Shown here: positions 16,808 to 40,963 of the stretch, piece after piece | Layout of the letters: each line of letters opens with the position of its first letter | Numbering within the stretch: the first letter of the stretch is position 1 | Assembly (NCBI GenBank): GCA_948433885.1 | Contig: CAOJEC010000007.1 | Coordinates: 1-40,963 of the forward strand | Direction: 5' to 3' | DNA: 40,963 nucleotides | DNA from: an uncultured bacterium | GTDB taxonomy: Bacteria; Bacillota_I; Bacilli_A; RF39; UBA660 | Program-made: the position numbers and the translations under genes | Notes under the pieces: model-generated | The model's input: the letters and a program-made list of their open reading frames with translations, nothing else | Told to the model about the DNA's origin: nothing | Databases searched by the model: none

Positions 16808-17524
16808 ATGAAGAATAATGTAGGGGTTTTATCTAGGCCGAGCACACGAAGTGCCAAGAAGCCAACTTTTCTAGTGTGTCTTTTGACATTGATGTTGATA
16901 GTAACTTTCATCTTCACTTTGAAGATGTACGAACCAGTCAAGAACATTTTGGTGACAGGTGGAATTTTTGTCTACCCGTTCACGTTTTTGATAATAGCGT
17001 ATATTGCTAAGTATTATAGTTTTAGTGAAGCAAAAAAAAGCGTCTTTATGAGTGCAGGTATGTTTGCCATTTTCTTCTTACTCATAATGTTATGTCTCAT
17101 TCCATCTGCTAACAATGCCACAGCAAGTTACAACTCCGTAGTTCAATATATCTTCGCGAACAATTTTTGGACGATAGGAAATACACAAATATTTTATCCT
17201 ACGATGGGTCAGTTTTGTGGAATATTGATCGCCTATATTTCTTCGCACTTGTTATATGCATCAATTTACAACGCAATTCATAGATATACTATCGATTATT
17301 TGGCAATGGGTCTAGGTGCTTTCATTGCAGCCATTGTCGATAGAGTAGTTTTTGTACCGATCTTACTATTGGAAAACTTACTAAACGGCAGCAACGAATT
17401 CGACTTCTTCATCAAATGTTTGACGAGCGAATTCATCGCTACGATCGTCTTCACTATGTTGGCCATTGCAGGTTACATTGCAATTTCATTGATCAAAGAA
17501 AGTAAAAATAAAAAGACTGTATAA
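16808..17524 (+). CDS. VUT-family transporter, possibly for a queuosine precursor
   Basis: The 238-residue protein has about six transmembrane helices. The segment GGIFVYPFTFLIIAYIAKYYSFSEAKKSVFMS matches the YhhQ/VUT pattern (G...YP.TF...D...E.YG...A...V), and SSHLLYASIYNAIHRYT and AFIAAIVDRVVFVPI correspond to later conserved helices. Characterised VUT members import queuosine precursors such as preQ0 and preQ1; the acidic residues of the first motif are replaced here, so the substrate is uncertain. Queuosine salvage is plausible as queH is 8 kb away. The GGTGATAATAAATG start is adequate and a terminator follows at once. Confidence 0.65.
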   Translation: MKNNVGVLSRPSTRSAKKPTFLVCLLTLMLIVTFIFTLKMYEPVKNILVTGGIFVYPFTFLIIAYIAKYYSFSEAKKSVFMSAGMFAIFFLLIMLCLIPSANNATASYNSVVQYIFANNFWTIGNTQIFYPTMGQFCGILIAYISSHLLYASIYNAIHRYTIDYLAMGLGAFIAAIVDRVVFVPILLLENLLNGSNEFDFFIKCLTSEFIATIVFTMLAIAGYIAISLIKESKNKKTV

Positions 17525-17557
17525 AAGTCATCGTCCGATCGGGGCGATGACTTTTTA
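17524..17557 (+). terminator. terminator after the VUT transporter gene
   Basis: AAGTCATCG and CGATGACTT pair exactly around an eleven-base loop and are followed by TTTTT. Confidence 0.85.
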
Positions 17558-17730
17558 ATTTCTAAAGAAAGCCTTTTAGCAGATGTCATACTACATACAC
17601 GCATCTGACGTACTTTCTATGTATTTGAGGTCGATGACCTACAGGAGTTAGATTTGTTACCTTATTCGTCGATATTTTCATTCGATGTTTCCTCTCATCA
17701 TAAGCATATGCCGATGACTCTCGGTGACAT
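17558..17730. other. intergenic sequence without recognised gene
   Basis: No reading frame of note is present. It holds a small GGTC-GAT-GACC palindrome and is the border between core sequence and the Asn-rich remnant next to it. Confidence 0.4.
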
Positions 17731-17879
17731 TAGTACAAACTAATCTTAACAGGTAGCTTGGTCGCGACGGCACCACCGTTGTTCACATTGTTGTTGTTGA
17801 GGTTGCCGTTGTTGTTCACAATGAATACATTAGCATTGTTATAGTTATAAGGCGAGAGCGACCAACTCGAAAAGTCACC
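17731..17879 (-). pseudogene. Asn-rich remnant of the C-terminal domain of the secreted-protein family; template-repeat-like
   Basis: On the minus strand a short open stretch reads GDFSSWSLSPYNYNNANVF, then a run rich in AAC codons (VNNNGNLNNNNVNNGG), then GAVATKLPVKISLY and a stop. It aligns with the end of the 2388-3902 protein (WSFSPY...FVLYPNGALY...GGVTPVINL). There is no ribosome binding site and a stop lies directly before the in-frame ATG. The AAC-dense block followed by a GC-rich GCCGTCGCGACC resembles template repeats of diversity-generating retroelements. It is not the cognate of the 2.5-kb region, since non-adenine positions differ too, and no reverse transcriptase is in the window. 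Either a decayed gene end or an orphan template. Confidence 0.5.
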
Positions 17880-18213
17880 ACACATTCATGCCAAATAACG
17901 ACACACTTAACAAGTACGCACATTATTCCAACCTAACCCCGCACTTATGATATTACATGAAAAAAGATTTTACAATAAAAGTTATATAATTTTTGACTAT
18001 CTTTTTATAATTTCTTAGATGTTATTATATCCTTTATTTTTAAGTATTTATGGCATTTTTATTTTAGAAGTATTCACATATATTTTTATAATTTCTTATA
18101 TTTTGGCTTTCAAAAGTAGTAAATTGGTAGTAAAATTCAGAAAATTTTTAAAGTATTCTTATAAAATATAAAAAAATACTATGTAATGTAATAGTATCAA
18201 AGTATAATCTTAT
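17880..18213. other. AT-rich non-coding stretch
   Basis: No gene is visible. The base composition is far richer in A and T than the flanks, and the tract contains the left copy of a 28-base direct repeat (18110-18137). It looks like foreign or decayed DNA. Confidence 0.45.
18110..18137. repeat. direct repeat flanking the transglutaminase-like gene, copy 1
   Basis: The sequence TCAAAAGTAGTAAATT followed by GGTAGTAAAATT recurs at 18992-19019 with two substitutions. Each copy itself contains GTAGTAA twice. The pair encloses about 0.85 kb with a single gene. Confidence 0.6.
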
Positions 18214-40880: not shown

Positions 40881-40963
40881 CTAAGTTTGATAAGGATCCG
40901 TCATAGTACCTGTTCCTCTCAAGGTCTTCACATAATTAGCACTTAGGTTTATGACAGGAGAGA
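40881..40963 (-). CDS. 3' end of a second gene of the large secreted-protein family (partial)
   Basis: Only the last 26 codons are in the window: SPVINLSANYVKTLRGTGTM followed by TDPYQT and stop. They align with the end of the 2388-3902 protein (TPVINLNSEYANSLIGDGTM followed by ENPYRT). The 5' part lies beyond the window, so the domain layout and signal peptide cannot be seen. The shared tail shows this lineage has several such proteins. Confidence 0.7.
   Translation of the reverse strand, partial: SPVINLSANYVKTLRGTGTMTDPYQT

Follow-up and report, generated by a model that had tools for sequence, protein, structure and literature searches.

A short adenine-rich element of an uncultured RF39 bacterium, very probably a free-standing template gene of a diversity-generating retroelement that acts in trans

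An adenine-rich element in a 40,963-nucleotide stretch of DNA (the window) is, judged by its sequence, a component of a diversity-generating retroelement (DGR): each DGR feature that could be tested conclusively was found. The window corresponds to contig C7 of genome G000, a MAG of 1,406,425 bases in 62 contigs (91.4% complete). We consider the element to be, very probably, a stand-alone template gene of a DGR that acts in trans. The comparisons presented here reveal templates, a reverse transcriptase (RT) with accessory genes, adenine-specific sequence transfer, a layout that is unlinked in the assembly, and a conserved RNA structure. A single RT appears to work for many templates and for many receptor genes.

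The minus strand of 17879-17731 reads WSLSPYNYNNANVFIVNNNGNLNNNNVNNGGAVATKLPVKISLY, which is encoded at 17864-17733, and holds, as the initial annotation had described, an asparagine-rich block dense in AAC and, we add, AAT, followed by a GC-rich end, GGTGGTGCCGTCGCG. The open frame over the element is only 51 aa long, and homology to receptor genes breaks off sharply at the GC-rich end; together, the short frame and the abrupt stop show that the element is not simply the end of a gene. The full functional element exceeds the span noted earlier and extends from a leader at ~17940 to a tail end at ~17607 (Table 1). Its template repeat (TR) core is supported by four more template copies in the genome and on adenine-specific derivatives in receptor genes. 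The placement of the promoter-like site agrees with a transcript that would start at the GGGG leader, and the terminator-like hairpin has a symmetric stem that could work on both strands, making it a possible end of the template transcript.

Table 1. Features of the template element and related features of the window
Feature	Position	Strand	Remarks
Receptor paralogue, 504 aa	2388..3902	-	Diverged terminal variable repeat; receptor profile E 2e-184
Terminator-like hairpin	17523..17555	.	Between tail and convergent gene 16808-17524; scan hit on + strand
Conserved structured 3' RNA tail, spacer-like	17607..17756	-	E 7e-25 with covariance model R1, built from this copy itself and 12 others
Terminal hairpin AGGT-CATCG-ACCT	17628..17640	-	4/4 pairs compensated
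Tail segment AATCTAACTCC	17644..17654	-	Pairs with 5' leader
Hairpin GTCAT/ATGAT inside tail	17697..17718	-	Best covarying internal helix; 7/9 pairs changed on both sides
TR core, 102 nt, 32 adenines	17763..17864	-	IMH-like GC-rich terminus GGTGGTGCCGTCGCG
5' leader GGGGTTAGGTT	17930..17940	-	One strand of 11-bp closing helix; 11/11 pairs with 17654-17644
Promoter-like site TTGTAA, 17 nt, TATCAT	17947..17975	-	Immediately 5' of leader; consensus scan 9/12 matches, a score by itself no better than shuffles

Five TRs of four types are present in the genome, one each on C7 (the window), C14, and C46 and two on C35. The four close copies of the window TR are 81-85% identical to it (E values of 1e-34 to 1e-41) and all sit in short frames; at this level of sequence similarity, chance is ruled out. 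A further ~20 diverged copies lie at the ends of long frames of ~440-910 aa. Templates and variable repeats have GGTGGTGCCGTCGCG in common, and beyond it templates read CTACCTGTTAAG and receptors read GTTATCAAC. DGRs are usually described as a single cassette with a single template, and template, RT, and target together form the usual layout, which we do not take as defining. That layout is seen for the two C35 templates, which, along with one receptor gene, adjoin the RT operon; as assembled, the other three templates (window, C14, and C46) lack it, being on contigs other than that of the RT and unlinked to it. The number and linkage of templates are uncertain because the genome is a MAG (91.4%, 62 contigs) in which contig ends often fall within receptor genes.

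No reverse transcriptase was found within the window, which bears out what the initial annotation had said. That annotation had also proposed looking through the whole genome for near-identical copies differing only at adenines and for a retroelement-type RT with an Avd-like gene; repeats that differ from the templates almost only at adenines are present, the two genes are found on C35, and all of them support the proposed resemblance to a DGR template. Searching the whole genome with RVT_1 gave two hits, on C16 and C35. The C35 protein (C35:9668-10819, 383 aa) is a DGR-type RT (RVT_1, 65.6 bits; PHROG reverse transcriptase, 6e-81). GSLSSQ and FMDD motifs are visible in its sequence, a variant that we take to be a mark of DGR RTs, and its best match among PDB sequences is 8ub7 (4e-27), known as the BPP-1 DGR RT complex. 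Directly upstream and overlapping the RT start is an Avd-like ORF of 118 aa, with matches to bAvd (1.2e-5; 26.2 bits, below the 40-bit cut-off) and to the PHROG Avd family (3e-5); its orthologue in the sister genome G008 scores 8.5e-7. A 114-aa protein, also upstream of the RT, matches MutS domain I (MutS_I, 1.8e-6, above its cut-off), and MutS-like proteins (MSL, PF01624) are a known DGR accessory (PMC10053308). The second RT (L001, C16:18032-18610) is retron-St85-like (NCBIfam, 2e-65) with no template nearby and was rejected as the partner of the templates. A retron identity for the templates was also set aside, none of the five being near this gene. The neighbors of the C16 RT are a membrane-protein gene and a gene with the look of a DHH phosphoesterase, and it is possibly a separate defense retron. 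In viral contigs, RT relatives were only ~25-40% identical, and a model of the RNA tail matched none of 20 scanned viral loci; a phage origin is not supported.

Adenine-specific change is evident in the receptor repeats under symmetric alignment scoring. In the best pair, the C17 receptor differs from a C35 TR at 16 of 29 adenines and at 0 of 79 other positions; the C9 receptor differs from a C35 TR at 12/29 adenines and 2/79 non-adenines, and a comparison of the C6 repeat with the C46 template gave 15/29 and 5/79, respectively. When well-matched repeats were pooled under a copying model that permits switches between templates, and that favors adenine changes by construction, 113 of 213 adenines had changed versus 24 of 537 non-adenines (odds ratio of 24, p = 6e-50). 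Because of this built-in bias, our argument rests on the symmetric counts and on template-versus-template controls, which had no adenine bias (e.g., 1/32 adenines versus 5/70 other positions). Within confidently assigned segments, adenine was replaced by G, T, and C 38, 25, and 11 times, respectively, and non-adenine changes numbered 6 in 381. About two-thirds of the receptors in G000, and 38 of 40 examined in the sister genome G007, have diverged too far from every template in the assemblies to reveal adenine bias. The repeat of the window's own receptor paralogue differs from the templates at 28 to 30 of ~80 non-adenine positions (~35%), and this gene was rejected as a target; the earlier claim that the 2.5-kb homologous domain is no target is upheld, and by this divergence the paralogue is no recent target of the templates in the assembly.

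All templates share a ~150-nt tail that begins with CTACCTGTTAAG. Across 13 templates of the genus, compensatory changes occur in 12 of 27 tail pairs, 97.7% of cells are paired, and covariation is 0.349, compared with 0.170 in shuffled alignments (reached in 0/500) and 0.03-0.09 in slid ones. The window tail alone has a minimum free energy not below that of shuffles (z of 0.34), and the structural case therefore rests on covariation. No real match to the tail was found in Rfam. By inspection, we spotted a second element of structure: a 5' leader (GGG plus 8 nt), located 137 to 197 nt ahead of the tail, pairs with the 11 nt that follow GGNAACA in the tail. All 11 pairs form in 16 of 20 elements and 10 in three more; the helix is absent from one, at G004 C40, possibly a copy that has decayed within a longer reading frame. 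In the window copy the helix takes a form of its own, GGGGTTAGGTT with AATCTAACTCC, in which copy-specific substitutions keep all 11 pairs. In a permutation test on the six distinct within-genus versions, the observed pairing was reached in 2 of 720 orders, and elements from other genera contribute further compensated versions. A covariance model of the tail only finds exactly the five TRs in G000, with the window TR scoring 147 bits in a range of 144 to 158 for the templates. Beyond its building set, the model found seven elements, one in each of four other genera of the family and three in DGR loci from named MAGs, and an Asn-rich template directly precedes every one of them. In the genomes of those four genera, a DGR RT follows on the same strand, with the tail ~0.5-1.5 kb upstream of it. 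The cis layout is therefore common among relatives, and dispersal of the templates looks like the derived state.

The sister genomes add independent pairs and alternative layouts. G008 carries four templates in tandem beside its RT on one contig; one of its repeats differs from TR_4 at 12/30 adenines and 0/71 non-adenines, and another differs from TR_1 at 13/35 and 0/75. In G007, a distance of 182 kb separates the sole TR (C2:219156) from the sole RT (C2:35606-36718) within one 234-kb contig, and a receptor on contig C1 differs from that template at 15/30 adenines and 0/77 non-adenines. As sequence evidence goes, G007 offers the best indication that a template may act far from its RT. Several stops interrupt the DGR RT of G006 (L134, G006:C96), although the template of that genome and its tail are well conserved.

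About 26 receptor genes in G000 bear variable repeats. The receptors have a common C-terminal domain of ~320 aa and varied N-terminal parts, in which hydrophobic or lipoprotein-like segments, recognized by eye, suggest a location on the cell surface. A receptor profile gave 33 hits in G000, made up of the five templates, ~26 receptors or fragments of receptors, and minor hits; the totals were 50 in G007, 35 in G008, and 32 in G006. Receptor number and linkage are under-assembled because many MAG contigs end inside receptor genes; the window itself stops, at its right end, within another receptor gene, cutting through the final 26 codons (40884-40961, minus strand). A first structure model of a receptor was discarded (pLDDT of 32). 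With a second AlphaFold model (pLDDT of 60, pTM of 0.71), Foldseek returned no significant match, and VIA-align placed two C-type lectin domains (Z of 3.4 and 3.2, too weak to assign the fold) under an IgA-peptidase chain (Z of 10). The receptor profile had no matches among PDB sequences. Two receptors, L041 (C19) and L013 (C9), are alike in their N-terminal part and over most of the domain but have differing second blocks upstream of the variable repeat (TGLSSDTGLGYGTNV... versus TGWFEDTGLGYGSNY...), as if by segmental gene conversion. Two others, L050 and L056 (C3 and C34), are frames of 879 to 912 aa in which modules of the NGGT...W..F type recur ahead of the variable domain, on its N-terminal side; by eye, these receptors resemble cell-surface repeat proteins. 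The C6 protein (L043, C6:10869-10994), a short target, has 206 aa, DUF6273, and no visible signal peptide, and it is possibly a cytoplasmic DGR target. Its repeat is a strongly adenine-specific mosaic of the C46 and C35 templates (15/30 adenines and 1/78 non-adenines changed).

The window template accounts for parts of two receptor repeats, neither over its full length. Columns 53-111 of the C19 receptor differ from the window TR at 11 of 20 adenines and at none of 32 non-adenines; the other three templates mismatch these columns at 9 to 12 non-adenine positions, and the window TR is the sole template in the assembly that matches the last half of this repeat, the first half of which follows the C46 template. 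The 5' part of the C34 receptor repeat also follows the window template, with 26 non-adenines matched and 7 of 10 adenines changed. Because both segments match its non-adenine positions, the window template has, as far as sequence can tell, served as a donor. These matches bear on an alternative that the initial annotation had kept as a fallback, in which the element would be a decayed receptor gene end or, in a related form, a retired template, a relic that the RT no longer reads. The 51-aa frame and the want of a complete receptor repeat from the window TR alone would fit such a reading, yet it is contradicted by the conserved tail, which scores like those of the other templates, by substitutions unique to this copy in leader and tail that preserve all 11 pairs, and by the adenine-mutated copy of its 3' half in the C19 receptor; we regard it as very unlikely. 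Still more improbable, to the point of being negligible, is that no retroelement is involved and that positive selection has acted on the ends of ordinary receptor paralogues. Many receptor pairs do differ at all base types, but four independent pairs have 12 to 16 adenine differences and 0 non-adenine differences in 71 to 79 sites, and non-coding copies with a conserved RNA tail lie beside a DGR RT.

That several templates contribute to one gene is less secure. Each mosaic repeat could instead come from one further template absent from the MAG, an explanation that we hold to be possible but doubt on balance. It gains from an assembly with 91.4% completeness and 62 contigs that breaks at repeats. 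Against it, the G008 repeat L227 is much better explained as a mosaic of TR_1 and TR_3 (log-likelihood gain of 30.7), two members of a four-template array on one contig, although G008 is itself an incomplete MAG; other G008 repeats match single templates without non-adenine changes. In addition, 5' cDNA integration in BPP-1 is homology dependent and may involve template switching (PMC3240598), and if the same is true here, mosaics by successive homing are to be expected.

From the stand-alone template reading, we infer transcription, docking, priming, homing, and current activity as follows. A promoter at ~17950 would produce a short non-coding RNA with a leader, an adenine-rich template, and a structured tail. 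The tail, closed on the leader by the 11-bp helix, would dock the Avd-RT complex encoded on C35 and, by analogy with the BPP-1 spacer (PMC12875486), start cDNA synthesis. The cDNA would be randomized opposite template adenines and would replace the homologous end of a receptor gene elsewhere in the genome, anchored at the common GC-rich end. Successive homing from different templates would yield the mosaic variable repeats. We see about an even chance that the system is a combinatorial trans-acting DGR, in which portable template genes with their own promoters and a shared RNA scaffold closed by a 5'-3' helix, whether scattered or arrayed, feed one RT complex. Given that length and fixed residues vary from template to template, successive homing from different ones would then shuffle the receptor framework as well as randomize single residues.

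The system is of a known kind. Like the DGR of Bordetella phage BPP-1 (mtd, avd, TR, brt), it has an RT with Avd upstream, an adenine-rich template with a GC-rich IMH end, a target gene whose 3' end carries the variable repeat, and, 3' of the template, a spacer with RNA structure (PMC12875486, PMC3240598). Unlike BPP-1, whose single cassette combines one template with one target, it has separate template genes, several per genome and unlinked to the RT in the assembly; its receptor targets are numerous and chromosomal, and its accessory genes include a MutS-like one. Treponema denticola, cyanobacteria, and Thiohalocapsa PB-PSB1 likewise have many variable proteins per genome, some far from the RT (PMC4891356, PMC7517822, PMC10907252). 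In those organisms the remote parts are target genes or there are several complete DGRs, whereas here the templates themselves are dispersed, with one RT for all. Remote targets are thus well known (PMC7517822, PMC4891356, PMC10907252), and multiple templates have precedents in the MetaCSST survey (PMC6642488): 271 of its 948 DGRs have several variable repeats, and 216 of those 271 have one TR, so that about one-fifth have more. The survey lists Stenotrophomonas SKA14 with two TRs and six variable repeats and gives a 91-pair example, Pseudomonas costantinii, with few adenine changes; in the passages covered, it mentions neither templates unlinked to the RT nor an RNA scaffold common to several templates (PMC6642488). 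A literature search for dispersed, unlinked, or trans-acting DGR templates, with subscription DGR surveys and structural papers outside its coverage, returned nothing matching, and a multi-template dispersed layout was not found described in the literature searched. The leader-tail helix was not found described in accessible literature either; the structural papers on BPP-1 RNA lie outside that coverage, and an equivalent pairing is possible there.

As free-standing RNA genes, templates would be open to duplication and movement, and surveys that seek templates near the RT only would miss such elements. The RNA requirements for recognition may be readable from natural variation, with the covarying tail and the leader-tail helix marking out a minimal template gene. 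The system also suggests a modular way of targeting DGR mutagenesis. The arrangement illustrates how one enzyme could be enough for a bacterium with a 1.4-Mb genome to vary 20 to 50 surface receptors.
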